Shown: positions 4,571 through 11,726 of the stretch, in pieces
Numbering within the stretch: position 1 is the stretch's first letter
Layout of the letters: every line of letters starts with the position of its first letter
Assembly (NCBI GenBank): GCA_015233115.1
Contig: JADFYJ010000007.1
Coordinates: 1 to 40,884 of the forward strand
DNA: 40,884 nt
Reading direction: 5' to 3'
Origin: Candidatus Omnitrophota bacterium
Lineage (GTDB): Bacteria; Omnitrophota; Gorgyraeia; Zapsychrales; Zapsychraceae
The notes under the pieces: model-generated
Databases searched by the model: none
What the model saw: only the letters and a program-made list of their open reading frames with translations
Told to the model about the DNA's origin: nothing
Position numbers and translations under genes: made by a program

Positions 4571-7500
4571 ATGATCAGATCAAGATTTTCATCTTGGACT
4601 AAATCAATCTGCATGATGATTGCCGTGGTATTTGGGATGCAATGTTTGTTGCCGGTGCAGATTGCGCGAGCCGATGTATTAAATTTACCAGTGCCAGGAG
4701 CTATGGTTGGATTATCCACACCGTTTGCACCATTAGCTTTAAAAGGTCTGGTCGTCAATCCCCAAAAACCACTCGAATTTCAATTTCTGGTTGATACTGG
4801 CCGCGGCCCGCAAGATACGTCAACGGTTAAAGAACAATCTAATCAACTAGTCAAATATTTTTTAGCAGGCTTAACTATTCCGGAAGGAGATCTATGGGTT
4901 AATCTATCTCCTTATGAAAAAGACCGCATAGTGCCGGATGCTTTAGGTAAAACAGATTTAGGACGAGATTTATTAGCGCAAGATTACATTCTCAAACAAT
5001 TGACTGCTTCACTCATTTATCCTGAAAAAGATTTAGGGGAAAAATTTTGGAATAAAATTTATGAAAAGGCCCAAAAACAATTTGGCACCACAGATATCCC
5101 GGTAAACACATTTAACAAGGTATGGATTTTGCCTGACCAAGCGCAGGTATTCGAGAATGGTAATGCCGCTTATGTGACCAAATCAACTTTAAAAGTCATG
5201 TTAGACGAGGATTATTTGGCATTGAAGAAAAATAATTCACCAGCAGAAGAAAAGAAAAATAATGCCCACACGCTAGCCTCACAAATCATCCGCGAAATCA
5301 TTATTCCTGAAATCGAAAAAGAAGTGAACACAGGCAAAAATTTCGCGCAATTACGTCAAATTTTCCAATCCTTAATTTTAGCCAAATGGTACAAAGAAAC
5401 CATCCAAAACGGTCTGTTAGATTCTGTTTACACCAATAAAAATAAAATCACCGGAGTTAATCTCAAAGACCCGACATTAAAAGAACAAATTTATAACCAA
5501 TATTTGCAAGCCTATAAAAAAGGCGTGTTTGATTATGTTAAAGAAGAATACAGTCCGGAAGGACAGATTGTGCCAAAGAAATATTTTTCTGGCGGGTTGA
5601 TTTGGAAGATGGCTATTGACCATGCGGGAAAACAAGCTGATGTTAAAAGCGATGGGGCAATGGTGGCATTACAAATAGCCCTGGATAAGGCCATGACTGG
5701 TGTGGATGAATCTCGTCGCGTTATTAAGAAAGACCAGCTTGCGCTGAGGATTGAAGAGATTGAGAAGAAAGAAGCTTTGTCTAAAGATAATGAAAGACTA
5801 ACAGAACGTATTTCCGTTCTTGATAAAGCAATTCAAGATGAATTAAGCAATGCAGATAGAATTGAAAAAGTATCACCCCCAGAGCAATTTGTCGCGCGTC
5901 AACGAAGCCTCTCCACGTACACGTACAGCTTCAAAGATGTTCACATTACAGGGACAGTTAACGTGGAAAAACATGACCCAGCCGGAATCCAGCTTTCAAA
6001 TGAGATTATCAATTTCAAAAGTATACTAGGGTATGAAGGCGAAAGTCATTTTATGGATCTTTTGATTTCATCGGACGGGCAACATTTTTTAGTATTTTAT
6101 AATGATAAAAAACTTATTGCGGGAACTGGTGAGTGGCTATTCGAACCGTTGGCAGTACCTAATATGGATAAAGAAGGGTTTCATGTTATTCAAAAGCCTG
6201 TGATATATACTGACTCAGAATATAATAATAAAACCAAAGTTGCCTTTTTGGAAAGATCAAAAGGAGCTTGGCAAAAAGCAGTAATAGAAATCCAGGATCT
6301 TAAAAGTTATGACCGCAGTCCCTACCAGCAGTTTGAAGCTTCTCCTGATGGCAAATATTCTGTTTTTCTATATCCGGGGATTGCCCAACTCTATATTTTC
6401 TGGAATAATAAGGTTCGGACTATTTCTCTTAAGGAATTAGGGCTAGATGGTATAAAAAGAGATATCAATTTCTCCGTAGATGGGAAATTCTTCAGGGTTG
6501 CAAGTTCGGATGGAAAATCCGTAAGTTTTTTCCAAGTCGGAATGAAAGTCGATCAAAAAAAGATAAAGGATCTTGAAGCGCAGCGTGCAGCGCTTGAGCA
6601 AGAACTTACTGTCAAAACCGATGAGCTCAAGAAATATCAGGAAAAAGATTCAGAGCTGAACACTACTAACCCAGACCTCGCCATGCTGCAGCCACCACTA
6701 AATAAAGTGACGATGCCCGCTGAAATCGAAATAAATTTTCGTAGAGCTGAGGAGCTGGCAATCAAAGCGACAAACGCTGATGAAATTAATGAAGCTTTGC
6801 TGTTTTATAAAAATGCCATAGATCAATTGACTCCGTTAATTAACGGCAGCACAGATGAAATCGCATTAGGAAATTTGAATTTATTTAACTCTCGATACAA
6901 ACGTTTAAAAAAATCATTAGCAGATTTAAAAGAATATTTTGACGTTATCGGAAATGACGGGAAATTAACCGGAGAAACTGTCACACGTTACAAAGCTCAT
7001 CGTGATGGTATAAAACATCCTAATGTGAATGCTATGATATTTAGTTCTGACGGGATTAATGTTCTGGGTGAACTTCGTGCGGCAGACAAAGACGTATTCC
7101 CCAGCACATTTAGTGGTGTTGGTGGCCATGCAGAACAAGGAGAGAAATCATTAGAGTCAATAAAGAAGGAAGTAAAACAAGAGATTAGATTCGGAGAATT
7201 GTTTCTGGAATTAGACCCTTTACGTCTAACACAAATCGGAAAAGATTATGAATATGACGGCGTTTTGCTTATGCGTGAATATGGATATATGGATATTGCT
7301 CAAAAGGAAAATTTAATAAGTATTCTTGATGAGCAATTAGCGGATCAGAAACAGACAAACAGGAAAGCAATCGGTAATATTTTTTATCAAGTCAACCCTA
7401 AAATTAATACGATTTCAGTCTTTACATTTAATTCTGCACAAAAACTAAAATTAAACGCCATTGAAGATGTTATTAAGCAGAGAACCGGTCTCACTGCTGG

Positions 7501-8335
7501 AATAATAGTGAATAATTATGAGAAAAAAAGTTTGTATGTTGAACAATTAACCCCGGAAAAAGAATCTGAAATTCTCGACCCTATTATGGCTGGTTTACGG
7601 GCTACTAATAAAACTATAACAACTAAGCATGGTGAAGATGAGGTAGAGGGGCTAGTGTGGAGTAATTTTGAAAAATTAACACAAGGTGTGAATAAAAATC
7701 CGGAACAATATACCGATATGTTTATGCCTTTTTTAATAAACAAGCAGATACTTAGAAAAATTAATCAGGCAGTTATTAAAGAACCTAGACCAATTAGAGA
7801 GAAGATCCTTTCTCTAATAAAACAAAGCGGCTTAACCACACCGGTTGGTGATATTGCCGCTCTTGAAAAAAGAGCACAAGCATTTGAAAATAATCGAATC
7901 GAATGGGAATTAAAACATTTTCATTACGTGCCTACTGAAGATGATTGGCTAAAATATGAAAATAGATCTCGCAATCCCAAGAAGGCAGATACGATCCTGC
8001 CTCCCCAGGAATATGATTATTGGCAGATTATGGCCGCTGATGGGCGTGATTACTGGGGGGTTAAAACGGATGATGCCATGACTTCTGCACCTTCGACAAA
8101 AGATCGTGTCGGGTTAACGGCCCAAAACGGCGGTATCGACCTCAATCAAATCGCCGTTAAACGCAATGGTAAAACCTTTAAAGTCCAATTTGACCCAGCC
8201 CAGCTGAATGAAATAATGCAGGGAGGATTTGATGGGTTTTGTCCCATTATTATCAACATAACGCCTATTCAAAGTCCATTTCCATTATTGGGAATTAATG
8301 TTGGCAAACAGAAAGAAATATTAGCAAAAATATAA
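4571..8335 (+). CDS. Giant secreted GGID-tail protein with propeller-like region, coiled coils and Nudix domain
   Basis: 1254 residues from ATG 4571, chosen because AAGGAGG lies 6 nt upstream; a frame from 4526 lacks a ribosome site. Residues 1-33 are a signal peptide (basic SRFSSWTK, hydrophobic core, cleavage near IARA-DV). Residues ~34-375 form a module shared with the next gene: LWVNLSPYEKDRIVP, LGRDLLAQDYILKQLTASLI, IIPEIEKEVNTGKNF, KKYFSGG. Then come a coiled coil (~382-430), a beta-rich propeller-like stretch with SPDGKYSVF and SVDGKFF (~450-650), a second coiled coil (~662-693) and a helical TPR-like segment (~720-755). A Nudix domain follows: G852-x5-E858-x7-K866-E867-V-x-Q870-E871, close to the canonical box with Arg changed to Lys and one Glu to Gln. 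The GGIDLN tail starts at ~1187. Nudix enzymes hydrolyse nucleoside-diphosphate-X compounds; the substrate is unknown and export is inferred from the signal peptide. Confidence 0.8.
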   Translation: MIRSRFSSWTKSICMMIAVVFGMQCLLPVQIARADVLNLPVPGAMVGLSTPFAPLALKGLVVNPQKPLEFQFLVDTGRGPQDTSTVKEQSNQLVKYFLAGLTIPEGDLWVNLSPYEKDRIVPDALGKTDLGRDLLAQDYILKQLTASLIYPEKDLGEKFWNKIYEKAQKQFGTTDIPVNTFNKVWILPDQAQVFENGNAAYVTKSTLKVMLDEDYLALKKNNSPAEEKKNNAHTLASQIIREIIIPEIEKEVNTGKNFAQLRQIFQSLILAKWYKETIQNGLLDSVYTNKNKITGVNLKDPTLKEQIYNQYLQAYKKGVFDYVKEEYSPEGQIVPKKYFSGGLIWKMAIDHAGKQADVKSDGAMVALQIALDKAMTGVDESRRVIKKDQLALRIEEIEKKEALSKDNERLTERISVLDKAIQDELSNADRIEKVSPPEQFVARQRSLSTYTYSFKDVHITGTVNVEKHDPAGIQLSNEIINFKSILGYEGESHFMDLLISSDGQHFLVFYNDKKLIAGTGEWLFEPLAVPNMDKEGFHVIQKPVIYTDSEYNNKTKVAFLERSKGAWQKAVIEIQDLKSYDRSPYQQFEASPDGKYSVFLYPGIAQLYIFWNNKVRTISLKELGLDGIKRDINFSVDGKFFRVASSDGKSVSFFQVGMKVDQKKIKDLEAQRAALEQELTVKTDELKKYQEKDSELNTTNPDLAMLQPPLNKVTMPAEIEINFRRAEELAIKATNADEINEALLFYKNAIDQLTPLINGSTDEIALGNLNLFNSRYKRLKKSLADLKEYFDVIGNDGKLTGETVTRYKAHRDGIKHPNVNAMIFSSDGINVLGELRAADKDVFPSTFSGVGGHAEQGEKSLESIKKEVKQEIRFGELFLELDPLRLTQIGKDYEYDGVLLMREYGYMDIAQKENLISILDEQLADQKQTNRKAIGNIFYQVNPKINTISVFTFNSAQKLKLNAIEDVIKQRTGLTAGIIVNNYEKKSLYVEQLTPEKESEILDPIMAGLRATNKTITTKHGEDEVEGLVWSNFEKLTQGVNKNPEQYTDMFMPFLINKQILRKINQAVIKEPRPIREKILSLIKQSGLTTPVGDIAALEKRAQAFENNRIEWELKHFHYVPTEDDWLKYENRSRNPKKADTILPPQEYDYWQIMAADGRDYWGVKTDDAMTSAPSTKDRVGLTAQNGGIDLNQIAVKRNGKTFKVQFDPAQLNEIMQGGFDGFCPIIINITPIQSPFPLLGINVGKQKEILAKI

Positions 8336-8384
8336 ATCTAAATGTTAGCTTGATAATTATTTATTTAAATTGGAGGATTAAAAA

Positions 8385-11300
8385 ATGATTAAATCTAGAT
8401 TTTCAAGCTGGACTAAATTTGTATGCATGCTCATCACTCTGGTATTCGGCCTGCAATGTCTGATTCCAGCCCGATTGGTCAGCGCAGATGTATCAATCCT
8501 CCCAACACCTGGAGCTATGGTTAACCTGAGCCCGGCATTTGTGCCGGCCCTATTACGCGGCGTGACTGTCCATCCGGAAAATCCCCTGCAATTTGAATTC
8601 ATCGTTGACAGCGGCAATGAAAAAACCACTTTGGATAAAAATTTCACACAAAATTCCCAGCGTCTCGTCAATTACTTTCTTTCTTCCATGACTGTTCCTG
8701 AAAAAGATTTATGGGTCAATCTTTCGCCAAATGAACCTGACCGCATTGTTCCGAAAAATTTAGGTCAAACCCAGCTTGGCCGGGATCTTCTCGCCCAGGA
8801 TTATATTCTTAAACAATTAACGGCCTCACTCATACAGCCGGACGGAGAATCCGGACGGGAATTATGGGAAAAAATTTATTCATCACTATCACGAGATCCC
8901 CGCTTTCGCGGGGATGACAAATTCCTTGATATTCCCTCAGATATTTTTAACAAAGTCTGGATCCTCCCAGAAAGCGCCACCATTTACGAGCACAACAACA
9001 CCGTCTATATCACAGATGCCAAATTAAAAGTCATGACGGATCAAGATTATGTTGCAGGGCAACATAATCGCAGTGGTGAGCCTGTCGAACCACAAAATTA
9101 CTCTAGATTGCAAGATCACCCTGTCACAAAAACACAAAATAATGTTTCAACACAATTAATTCAAGGAATAATCATTCCTGAAATTGAAAAAGAAGTTAAC
9201 ACCGGCAAAAATTTTACCCAACTCCGTCAAATCTATTATTCCCTGATATTAGCCAAATGGTATAAAGACGTAGTACGTAATAGTATTTTAGATAAGGTTT
9301 ATATTGGTAAAAATATGGTCAATACCCTATTACCTATAACATCTAGCCTATCACCTGTGGACATCTACAAACAATATATGTCCGCCTTTAAACAAGGCGT
9401 ATATGAAAAAATTAGAGAAGAATACGACCCTAAAACACAAAAAATTATCGCCCGCAAATATTTTTCAGGTGGGTTTACAGATTCTGCCATGATCATTCAC
9501 CATGCAAGCGCAAACCAGATCGTGCCGGTCGGTGAGCAAACGCAGATTAAAGTTCATTTGGCTGATGCCGCCCAGATATCCACGATTGCCAGTCCTTTTG
9601 AAATTCATCACGATGATTATCCCCAATTACTCGCCTCATTATTAAAAGTTTTAAAAATTGAAGAAGTTGAAGAAGATTTATTTTCTTCGGACCGGAATGA
9701 GCCAAAATTAATTCGAAAGATTGAAGGGAAAGTCAACGATGATTTTTTTGCCCAAATTTATAAAGAGTTGAAAGGTAAAAATAATTTATTATTAGGTAAA
9801 CTAGAAGGTCAATATATTGAAGCCAGCACAGTGACAATATATCTGCAAAAAAAAGAAAGTCCCATTTTGCCAAACGCTTTTCGGGTTCATGTCTCAGCCA
9901 ATTATGCGTTGGATATTATTTTAGAAAACAGAAAAACTTTACTTGACCAAAATGAAGCGTTACGCGAACAAATGAAATTCGCGTCAGTCATAAACGGAAT
10001 TTCTTCCACAGATTTGAAAGAAAATCTGTTCGCGGATGTATTAGGTGAAGAAAACCGTGTTTACTTCAAGGTTTTCCGGACCATCCGCAAAGAAATGGCC
10101 GTTAATAACGACGAAAAAGATATCTTCCAACTGATGAAAGATGAAAAAAGCACCTATGAAGAATTTTTAGAAAAATTTAAGTCGAAATTAAAAGCATCCG
10201 GGATCAATGAAGATGCCCAAAATATTTTAAATCGGTTAAAAATCAAAGTTGACGATTTTATTGCCGTCAATGATGTTTTAATGGAGCTTGTGAACCGTTC
10301 TGTTCACGAAGGCTATATTAAGTATTATGAAGCATTGCGGGTCATGTTTATGTCCCAGATCCGGGTAGGAGTTGTTCCTGATTCCATAGTGCGGGATATT
10401 AAAGCAAATTCTGTTTCCATGGTTGTCAACCGGTCCGGAATGCCGGACTATTTTGAAGATATCCAATTTAATCCCTCTCGGGCACTTCGCGCCGCAATGG
10501 CTAAATTAAAACCTGGTGAAACAAATTTATCAAAAGCGTTTACTAAAAAATGGTTTCCGCTTCAACGCTGGGTCTTCTATCAAAGAGACGGAATGGATGT
10601 TTATCGTATCGGCGCCAATCCTTTTCCTCACTTAAATAACAGCATCAATATCGTGCACGATGATCAAGTGTCACAAATCCCGTCACAGAGCACCTTAGAA
10701 GACATGTTAACGTTATTAAACATTATGAAATCTTTCGGGCGGAATGTGAATTTTAGACTGTTTCTGAATGCCATGTTTGCCGGTTTTTCATTTGACCATT
10801 TACATTACCAGGGATTTTTGAAAATAACCCATGTTGAAAAAACGCTCAATGATGACACCTTAATATCTCAAGGCATCAATACGGACGAAATCGAATATTT
10901 AACGCCCAAAGAAGGGGCGTTTTGGCTACCATCTACTTTCGTATTAAAAGGCCGCGATGCCAATAAAATGTCATCAGCGATCATTGACATATTACGTCAT
11001 GCAAACCCGGCCACACGAGAATTACAATTAAAAGCAGATAGTGAATTCTCGTATAATATTTTATTTACTTTAGACGATAATGAGGAATATCGTATTTTTA
11101 TCTTTGCACGAACATTTAACCCGCAAAAACCTGAAGATCCCACAAATAAAATGGAAAAAACCTTGGAAATAAAAGATAAGGAAGGAAAAGTTATATTTTC
11201 AGGGAGACCTGCCGGAGTTGAATTTGCAGATACGTTGCTCTACGGTTCACCTGGTGATAAGCAAAACTTTGAAACCGTGAAAAATGAATCCATACTGTTT

Positions 11301-11726
11301 CGACAAATTGTGGCTGATTTAGGTAAACAATTAACTTATCCAAAATTTGACGCACTTATTCAAGATATAAAAAATGACTTAAAACTTAAGCCCAAAACCG
11401 ATTCAGCTTTATTAGCAGGGTTATCGGATAAAGGAAATAAAGCTGTCCTGAACAAATCCGACGTCGGTGGTATCGACATGTCCACTGTCAGTTTTAAACG
11501 GAAGGATGGGCTCGCGCCGAAAATTGTATTTAATTTAGACCCAGCCATGTTGGAACGGATGCAATCTGGAGACTTTAAAGGTTTTCAGGCTATTATCACT
11601 GATGTCATCCCTTTGCCCAGCGTACTACCTTTATTAGGTTTATCGCCCTTTGAAACAAAATCAGGTGACGAAAAAATCGGGCTTGGGCCCGTCGATCGAT
11701 TCATAAAAAAGCTATCAAACGCCTAA
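8385..11726 (+). CDS. Giant secreted GGID-tail protein with HIT/GDP-sugar-phosphorylase-like centre
   Basis: 1113 residues; GGAGG precedes the ATG and the gap to the previous gene is 49 nt, so the two may be cotranscribed. Signal peptide 1-35 (SRFSSWTK, cleavage near VSA-DV) and N-module ~36-380 closely parallel the previous protein: LWVNLSPNEPDRIVP, LGRDLLAQDYILKQLTASLI, IIPEIEKEVNTGKNF, RKYFSGG. The middle (~400-710) is mostly helical and unrecognised. Residues ~720-960 resemble the GalT/HIT superfamily, nearest in memory to GDP-sugar phosphorylases of the VTC2/GDPGP type: GANPFPHLNNSINIVHDD, then FSFDHLHYQGF with the His-x-His-x-Gln catalytic triad at 805, 807 and 809. The tail begins GGIDM at 1028, followed by DPAMLERM, GDFKGFQAII and LLGL. 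Two dispersed repeats are embedded in the reading frame (8890-8920 and 9071-9093). The phosphorylase call is moderate; the shared modules are certain. Confidence 0.8.
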   Translation: MIKSRFSSWTKFVCMLITLVFGLQCLIPARLVSADVSILPTPGAMVNLSPAFVPALLRGVTVHPENPLQFEFIVDSGNEKTTLDKNFTQNSQRLVNYFLSSMTVPEKDLWVNLSPNEPDRIVPKNLGQTQLGRDLLAQDYILKQLTASLIQPDGESGRELWEKIYSSLSRDPRFRGDDKFLDIPSDIFNKVWILPESATIYEHNNTVYITDAKLKVMTDQDYVAGQHNRSGEPVEPQNYSRLQDHPVTKTQNNVSTQLIQGIIIPEIEKEVNTGKNFTQLRQIYYSLILAKWYKDVVRNSILDKVYIGKNMVNTLLPITSSLSPVDIYKQYMSAFKQGVYEKIREEYDPKTQKIIARKYFSGGFTDSAMIIHHASANQIVPVGEQTQIKVHLADAAQISTIASPFEIHHDDYPQLLASLLKVLKIEEVEEDLFSSDRNEPKLIRKIEGKVNDDFFAQIYKELKGKNNLLLGKLEGQYIEASTVTIYLQKKESPILPNAFRVHVSANYALDIILENRKTLLDQNEALREQMKFASVINGISSTDLKENLFADVLGEENRVYFKVFRTIRKEMAVNNDEKDIFQLMKDEKSTYEEFLEKFKSKLKASGINEDAQNILNRLKIKVDDFIAVNDVLMELVNRSVHEGYIKYYEALRVMFMSQIRVGVVPDSIVRDIKANSVSMVVNRSGMPDYFEDIQFNPSRALRAAMAKLKPGETNLSKAFTKKWFPLQRWVFYQRDGMDVYRIGANPFPHLNNSINIVHDDQVSQIPSQSTLEDMLTLLNIMKSFGRNVNFRLFLNAMFAGFSFDHLHYQGFLKITHVEKTLNDDTLISQGINTDEIEYLTPKEGAFWLPSTFVLKGRDANKMSSAIIDILRHANPATRELQLKADSEFSYNILFTLDDNEEYRIFIFARTFNPQKPEDPTNKMEKTLEIKDKEGKVIFSGRPAGVEFADTLLYGSPGDKQNFETVKNESILFRQIVADLGKQLTYPKFDALIQDIKNDLKLKPKTDSALLAGLSDKGNKAVLNKSDVGGIDMSTVSFKRKDGLAPKIVFNLDPAMLERMQSGDFKGFQAIITDVIPLPSVLPLLGLSPFETKSGDEKIGLGPVDRFIKKLSNA
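8890..8920 (+). repeat. REP-like palindrome inside a coding region
   Basis: ATCCCCGC (8896-8903), loop TTTC, GCGGGGAT (8908-8915), followed by GACAA. Translated in frame it gives DPRFRGDD (residues about 171-178), a well-known peptide signature of dispersed palindromic repeats caught in genes. The homologous loop of the paralogous giant protein lacks it. Confidence 0.75.
9071..9093 (+). repeat. Second dispersed-repeat fragment inside the same gene
   Basis: CAGTGGTGAGCCTGTCGAAC followed by CAC matches, from memory, the common TTCGACAGGCTCACCACTG type of intergenic repeat. In frame it yields SGEPVEP in a loop where the paralogue has an unrelated Asn/Lys/Glu-rich loop. Confidence 0.5.

Follow-up and report, generated by a model that had tools for sequence, protein, structure and literature searches.

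Predation or parasitism has been proposed for most Omnitrophota (Seymour et al., PMC10066038), and for 'Ca. Velamenicoccus archaeovorus' Kizina et al. (PMC13153191) cite micrographs in which the cytoplasms of predator and victim are in open contact. The giant open reading frames (ORFs) of this phylum were described as having few annotated domains, in a report that does not mention the protein family treated here (Seymour 2023, PMC10066038). In the present study, we analyzed the first 40,884 bases (hereafter the window) of a 119-kb contig from a Candidatus Omnitrophota bacterium, whose genome comprises 2.39 Mb in 37 contigs. Two adjoining intact ORFs on the + strand, both starting with ATG, at 4571-8335 (1254 amino acids, aa) and 8385-11726 (1113 aa), encode proteins that carry on one chain a conserved N-terminal module (N-module) and a conserved C-terminal module (C-module), with a predicted signal peptide in front and an enzyme-like middle (the cargo) between the modules. 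We propose, with a probability of about 0.6, that both belong to a family of Omnitrophota enzyme carriers that are exported by the Sec route and whose enzymes act beyond the cytoplasm of the producer, with metabolites of prey or host as the most likely targets. The part of this proposal readable from the sequences comprises the architecture, the export features, a purge of all but functional cysteines, the retained catalytic motifs and a junction motif, D-x-A-M.

Polymorphic toxins and effectors resemble the family in their constant terminal modules, their many paralogues per genome and the swapping of unrelated activities behind a kept N-terminus. The family differs from them in that its cargos, where matches are clear, are mostly ordinary metabolic enzymes, several per chain, and in the further constant module that it has at the C-terminus. 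Immunity genes were not seen beside the window members; by sequence reading, the genes around both ORFs are housekeeping-like (thiC-, trxB- and ilvB-like). Cargo of the Type IX secretion system (T9SS) also combines a Sec signal peptide with a short kept C-terminal domain on unrelated passengers, but the family has an additional large N-module; the window proteins gave no Pfam or NCBIfam match to the T9SS C-terminal domain, and the T9SS machinery was not searched for. Like the family, the giant Omnitrophota ORFs (PMC10066038) belong to the same phylum and encode very long modular chains. Since Nudix and HIT-like units related to those of the window recur within them, giant ORFs do hold metabolic enzyme domains; frames of 45,379, 39,957 and 19,780 aa with such units lie at G099:C1:1234970, G296:C62:96781 and G015:C20:118909. 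Unlike in the family, D-x-A-M is not enriched in the giant pieces. The idea that giant ORFs begin with the N-module was dropped, as in the two genomes tested the N-module occurs in other, shorter ORFs.

In the window Nudix protein, D-x-A-M separates the N-module, a propeller-like unit, the Nudix unit and the C-module. The features of both proteins are as follows.

4571-8335, + strand: Nudix-bearing family member, predicted to be exported, 1254 aa (signal peptide, N-module, propeller-like/coiled-coil unit, helical and Nudix unit, C-module)
4571-4672, + strand: predicted signal peptide MIRSRFSSWTKSICMMIAVVFGMQCLLPVQIARA, predicted cut before D35, from the sequence and family-wide features
4673-5629, + strand: N-module of about 320 aa that ends just past KKYFSGG (profile match C35:4592-5629, E=2.3e-157)
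5651-5695, + strand: two D-x-A-M motifs, DGAM (5651-5662) and DKAM (5684-5695), immediately 3' of the N-module
5942-6547, + strand: region resembling WD/beta-propeller repeats between charged coiled-coil-like segments, recognized by eye; no Pfam match
6674-6685, + strand: D-x-A-M motif DLAM, at the start of the Nudix unit
6719-7843, + strand: helical and Nudix unit of YfcD/IPP-isomerase type, kept in 8 further Omnitrophota genomes
7121-7186, + strand: Nudix box GGHAEQGEKSLESIKKEVKQEI, with R replaced by K and the middle metal Glu by Gln
8069-8080, + strand: D-x-A-M motif DDAM, ahead of the C-module
8129-8296, + strand: C-module, GGIDLNQ...PLLGI
8385-11726, + strand: HIT-like family member, predicted to be exported, 1113 aa, cysteine-free beyond the signal peptide
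8385-8486, + strand: predicted signal peptide MIKSRFSSWTKFVCMLITLVFGLQCLIPARLVSA, from the sequence and family-wide features
8487-9473, + strand: N-module ending KYFSGG, modelled by AlphaFold2 (AF2) with a predicted local distance difference test score (pLDDT) of 78, without a PDB fold match
9480-9491, + strand: D-x-A-M motif DSAM, immediately 3' of the N-module
9570-11399, + strand: HIT-like enzyme region related to DUF4922; homologues lie in giant ORFs of further Omnitrophota
10797-10814, + strand: catalytic-type motif HLHYQG
11400-11411, + strand: junction-motif variant D-S-A-L, ahead of the C-module
11466-11648, + strand: C-module, GGIDMST...PLLGLSP

When the genome was searched with the second window protein, residues 1-393 and about 1005-1104 recurred in many proteins, while the middle did not. 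The nearest paralogue (C13) showed 76% identity in the N-terminal part, 56% in the C-terminal part and nothing between, and stepwise identity to it drops past the N-module. The genome of the window encodes about 28 N-module proteins. The N-module spans about 330 highly conserved residues (LxKYFLASLTVPEKDLWVNLSPYE...MGRDLLAQDY.LKQLTASL...RKYFSGG) without a sequence match in Pfam, NCBIfam or PDB, and its AF2 model, of moderate quality (pLDDT 78, predicted template modelling score 0.73), matched no PDB fold at E<=0.001. The C-module, about 60 aa long (GGIDLN...DPA...GF.PVIINI.P...FLGL), is not a known Pfam or NCBIfam domain by sequence; in every match it sits no more than 57 residues from the C-terminus, and it occurs in 91 of the 100 members that end at a real stop codon. 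Searching the single window proteins against PDB sequences gave nothing useful.

The data used throughout are metagenome-assembled genomes, and the family census and copy numbers come from six-frame searches. A profile scan of the GTDB species genomes found at least 492 confirmed N-module loci; the members from other genomes analyzed here are the best 80 of these, ranked with a profile built from the window's genome, and the counts below describe that sample. Nearly all of these 80 are labelled Omnitrophota, with one Planctomycetales and one Elusimicrobia. The N-module was present in 26 of 29 close relatives, with up to 59 copies per genome, and in 137 of 384 genomes sampled across the phylum. 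These include almost all of the window's order; in the rest of the class, copies are less numerous and have diverged further. Candidate N-module copy numbers ranged from zero to about 79. A frameshift or assembly artefact as the origin of the fusions was ruled out, as the same layout is found in dozens of genomes. The viral contigs searched yielded no relative, and no description of the family was found in the literature searched, whose coverage largely left out subscription journals and preprints. The family is apparently large, bacterial and so far undescribed.

Both window proteins start with MI[RK]SRFSSWTK; a hydrophobic core and then an A-x-A-like site come next, and the predicted signal peptides end in ...LLPVQIARA|D (4571-8335) and ...LIPARLVSA|D (8385-11726). 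Across the family, we scored the charge before the core, the core itself and an AxA-like site downstream. The hydrophobic core (median 15 aa) is present in all 118 readable N-termini; it is preceded by a net positive charge in 115 and followed by an AxA-like site in 88. The mean net charge is +2.8 before the core vs -0.1 after it, and it is higher before than after in 112 of the 118. A transmembrane-like stretch within the N-module was seen in no member, and a weak hydrophobicity threshold was reached by 21 of 116 remainders. The initial annotation had assigned convincing signal peptides to both window proteins, which charge, core and AxA-like site now bear out as a family-wide trait; it had also raised the alternative that the N-terminal segment is an uncleaved anchor with the enzyme facing the cytoplasm. 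Such an anchor would fit the 30 of 118 N-termini without a simple AxA-like site, but it is disfavoured by the charge distribution, which in 112 of 118 cases predicts an N-in/C-out orientation, cleaved or not. Given this pattern and the positive-inside rule, the enzyme side should lie outside even if the segment is uncut. The core length and the depletion of cysteines speak in the same direction, and we regard an inward-facing enzyme as highly improbable.

This depletion is pronounced: cysteine makes up 0.13% of the cargo residues, against 1.29% for soluble neighbour ORFs (n=346; p=1.7e-49) and 0.59% for neighbour ORFs with an N-terminal hydrophobic segment (n=69). These comparison sets may hold a few false genes. 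After the signal peptide, the HIT-like window protein has no cysteine and the Nudix protein has one. Such low cysteine content is hard to explain for cytoplasmic enzymes. Family-wide signal peptides, the charge bias and the roughly tenfold cysteine depletion together argue strongly that normally cytoplasmic enzymes would really be exported, as the initial annotation had suspected.

The cargos are diverse. In 121 members (27 from the window's genome and 94 from others), the middles fell into 75 groups without detectable mutual homology (BLAST E<=1e-5 across >=100 aa). In the window's own genome they include a UbiB/ABC1-type kinase, an alanine dehydrogenase-like protein, a GalE-like epimerase, a histidine-kinase ATPase domain, a HAD phosphatase, a PEP-utiliser domain, a methyltransferase, HD, and GH26 with HEAT repeats. 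In the other genomes we found PGK, GAPDH, enolase, PGI, transketolase, the PPDK N-domain, UDPGP, radical SAM, AMP-binding, adenylate kinase, acyl-CoA dehydrogenase, starch-synthase-like, amylo-glucosidase, M48 peptidase and PRTase-CE cargos, among others. Because the window proteins share their ends with dozens of such unrelated cargos, an explanation has to cover the whole family and not only nucleotide-sugar enzymes. The initial annotation had described two exported enzymes that might act on nucleotides or nucleotide-sugars of lysed or preyed-on cells; its export part stands, and its scope was too narrow for a family of dozens with very different enzymes.

Several members carry more than one glycolytic enzyme. 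Locus L079 ('Candidatus Zapsychrus exili') encodes a 2991-aa chain of GAPDH, GAPDH, PGK (1.5e-102) and enolase (3.6e-61), with a weak class II aldolase match (7e-7); L128 combines PGK and enolase on one chain, L095 has two GAPDHs and an acyl-CoA dehydrogenase, and L087 has PGI. Ordinary stand-alone PGK and GAPDH are also encoded in the genomes with glycolytic-cargo loci, so the exported copies are extra ones. Consecutive glycolytic steps fused on exported chains (L079, L128) would also suit a private metabolic pathway in the lumen of an internal membrane compartment or periplasm-derived organelle. Internal membranes that are continuous with the plasma membrane can be reached through Sec-type signals, and compartment-like membranes exist in related bacteria. 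However, no organelle genes were identified, cofactors would need import and the data favour an internal site no more than an external one, which makes this location unlikely in our judgement.

Some cargos deserve separate mention. The predicted exported member L040 1703-6916 has three HExxH motifs, two of them in near-identical repeats (HEFAHTLTT), and also matches the eCIS_core domain (6e-5). Loci L098, L119, L091 and L104 encode radical-SAM proteins with predicted Sec export (e.g. BchE/HpnJ-like, 4e-44) whose cluster cysteines are kept; an iron-sulfur enzyme beyond the cytoplasm would be unusual.

The remaining cysteines bear on whether the cargos are still enzymes. Each of four exported GAPDHs has exactly one cysteine, the catalytic one (SNASCTTNA), compared with 6-8 in the stand-alone copies, and exported PGK, enolase and acyl-CoA dehydrogenase have none. 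The C-x3-C-x2-C motif is kept in the four radical-SAM cargos, which hold only 4-6 cysteines per 600-1260 residues. Further intact motifs were found in PGK (RVD[FY]NVP, GGGD[ST]), enolase (IK.NQ, SHRSGE), PGI (IGIGGS, FDQWGVE.GK), HATPase (N, G1 and G2 boxes), HAD (DxDD, GDxxxD), the UbiB-type kinase (HADPHPGN, DFG), epimerase (TGAGYIG, YxxxK), adenylate kinase (P-loop) and transketolase (GDGE). Intact motifs are no proof of activity. Enzyme folds might instead have been reused as structural, adhesive or decoy modules at the surface, with catalysis lost: most cargos score far under the family trusted cut-offs, the window Nudix box is partly degenerate and glycolytic enzymes are known surface moonlighting proteins. 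Catalytic residues are nevertheless kept in every well-matched cargo checked, and exported GAPDH retains no cysteine but the catalytic one, so that loss of catalysis appears improbable. Together with the positive-inside signal peptides and the cysteine depletion, this lone catalytic cysteine supports a genuine export of what would be working enzymes.

Outside the C-module, D-x-A-M occurs 187 times in 149,097 cargo residues vs 11 times in 206,396 neighbour-ORF residues, a 23-fold enrichment, and is carried by 72 of the 121 members; D-x-A-L is not enriched. A DNA repeat as its source was ruled out, as 186 of the 187 DNA contexts differ and all synonymous codons are used, with GAC and GCG/GCC somewhat favoured; the motif is therefore selected at the protein level. 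It is located past the N-module, ahead of the C-module and between domains. In L079 it stands at 839 (PGK starts at 854), 1291 (PGK ends at 1278 and enolase starts at 1310), 1747 (enolase ends at 1712) and 2550, and in L128 at 1712, between the end of PGK (1702) and the start of enolase (1727). In eight domain-mapped chains, none of 31 motifs fell inside a Pfam domain, with 8.7 expected at random (p=2.5e-5), a lenient null since linkers differ in composition from domain cores. D-x-A-M first caught our attention during inspection of these data, and the comparison with neighbour ORFs is therefore the better control of the two. These positions suggest linkers or polyprotein processing sites. Processing is something we infer, and a conserved linker or a recognition site is a possible alternative; missing from 49 of the 121 members, D-x-A-M is not an obligatory processing site. 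A bolder version of our proposal, which we hold only tentatively, is that a phylum-specific system exports cysteine-purged, active central-metabolism enzymes as polyproteins that are cut at D-x-A-M, and that parts of glycolysis and other pathways thereby take place outside the producer, on or in prey or host.

Taken singly, the first window protein gave a Pfam NUDIX match of only E=0.028. A profile from the alignment of the window unit with 8 homologues (A4) matched PDB 2fkb yfcD at 1.2e-16 and IPP isomerases at about 2e-15. The window box reads KEVKQE(IRF) against the consensus REUxEE, with R replaced by K and the middle metal Glu by Gln; the complete box GX5EX7REUXEEXGU is thus absent here and is found in several homologues. 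Of the metal-set glutamates, the first and the last (E151 and E155 in A4) are, like H94 and H100, invariant in 9/9 sequences. The position that we take to hold the catalytic cysteine in IDI-type enzymes reads VGGH in the window unit and presumably CGH in IDI. The homologues come from 8 other genomes of the phylum, 7 in frames of 3,126-45,379 aa and 1 in a 1,089-aa frame; the best, G027:C35, is an N-module protein itself, with N-module and Nudix unit in one 3,126-aa frame. Profile similarity, both histidines and the Glu pair thus link the unit to YfcD/IPP-isomerase Nudix proteins, from which it differs by its predicted export, its fusion to a helical region and family modules, and its glutamine.

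The HIT-like unit has the motif HLHYQG, and H-x-H-x-Q-G is invariant in the 5/5 homologues compared. In the profile library it matches only DUF4922, with values of 0.0006 (window protein) and 8.3e-16 (best homologue); we take DUF4922 to be a member of the HIT clan. PDB searches of the unit gave no GalT or GDPGP match, and the AF2 model of the HIT-like region with the C-module reached a pLDDT of 50, too low to be informative, with an alignment limited to C-module rows. Homologues were found in 5 other genomes: three long ones (32-34% and 30-31% identity) in frames of 3,637-10,099 aa and a distant one in a 39,957-aa frame. Compared with DUF4922/HIT proteins (VTC2/GDPGP, GalT), the unit shares the motif and the DUF4922 match, but has no significant match to a solved structure, carries an extra N-terminal helical region and is predicted to be exported. 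We infer a 'HIT-like' identity from the motif and a weak profile. The enzyme families named in the initial annotation are therefore only partly retained: Nudix identity and key glutamates, as well as the conserved HxHxQ motif, are supported, while nucleotide-sugar substrates of the Nudix unit found no evidence, its type being YfcD/IPP-isomerase, and a GDP-sugar phosphorylase of the VTC2/GDPGP or GalT kind was not established, DUF4922 being the only match.

We propose that the chain, consisting of a signal peptide, an N-module of about 330 aa, one or more cytoplasmic-type enzyme units and a C-module of about 60 aa, would lose its signal peptide after export, and that, on the outer side of the cytoplasmic membrane, the N- and C-modules would then serve to hold the chain, to assemble it or to hand it on, with D-x-A-M marking flexible or protease-cut junctions between units. 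The enzymes would act outside the producing cytoplasm, most likely on prey or host metabolites, at or after cell contact, and the window cargos (a Nudix unit of YfcD/IPP-isomerase type and a HIT-like unit of nucleotidyl-transferase/hydrolase type) would probably act on phosphorylated metabolites of the victim. Metabolites of other cells are judged the likeliest target because ATP, NAD+ and phosphorylated sugars occur there; a link to predation is plausible.

GAPDH, PGK, enolase and radical-SAM proteins are regarded as cytoplasmic enzymes because their co-substrates are cytoplasmic. The chains might accordingly be injected effectors, exported and then delivered into the host or prey cytoplasm, where ATP, NAD+ and S-adenosylmethionine (SAM) are available. 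Kinase, dehydrogenase and radical-SAM cargos need such co-substrates, constant ends with variable middles recall effector and polymorphic-toxin layouts, and predation by contact has been reported for Omnitrophota (PMC10066038, PMC13153191). Yet the extreme cysteine depletion points to a long stay or folding in an oxidising compartment and not in the reducing environment of a cytosol, no machinery for injection was connected with the genes, and chains of up to several thousand residues would be hard to inject folded. We consider injection less probable than our main proposal, though its most serious competitor.

Several points weigh against the proposed export of enzymes that act on prey or host. 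The site of action, whether prey, surface or lumen, is only deduced, and the support is at the sequence level. We know of no extracellular source of ATP, NAD+ or SAM for the organism. A partner dedicated to secretion or processing did not emerge from the analysis; a simple AxA-like site is missing from 30 of 118 N-termini, and D-x-A-M from 49 of 121 members. A search for an ATP/ADP translocase gave no match in 29 relatives, and its control also matched nowhere, so this result has no weight either way.

Family genes are often arranged in tandem, as in L141 (four N-modules), L104, L088, L051 and the window (4571-11726), and this arrangement suggests that the family grew by local duplication and exchange of the middle. 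A third family-type ORF lies at the contig end:

113-2812, + strand: ORF with a C-module and a weak methyltransferase match; N-module absent, or lost near the contig end

It shows no signal peptide and no N-module, and stops break the frame upstream; it is possibly a truncated, frameshifted or N-module-less member.

A palindromic repeat (GATCCCCGCTTTCGCGGGGA and variants) was found in 26 copies in the window's genome (control 0). Seven copies lie in frame within loops of the N-module coding sequence and are translated as SRDPRFRGDDK (window 8883-8921; G000 C13:15763, C12:1163, C18:20153, C31:93822, C34:22491 and C22:124540). They resemble Rickettsia palindromic elements, with descent among paralogues and repeated insertion not separated. 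The same loops hold translations of other short dispersed repeats, SGEPVEPQ, SPLRGEGRVRG and NRRE..LEDRQATKNK (window 9072-9101; L037, L045, L051, L056 and L059), which means that insertions are tolerated at two fixed positions of the N-module.

If our proposal is true, the export of dozens of such enzymes from each genome of a bacterial order would represent an extracellular metabolism absent from the literature searched. The D-x-A-M junction is directly testable as a processing site. The N-module provides a marker that can be counted, imaged and expressed, and thereby a handle on the interaction of Omnitrophota with other cells.

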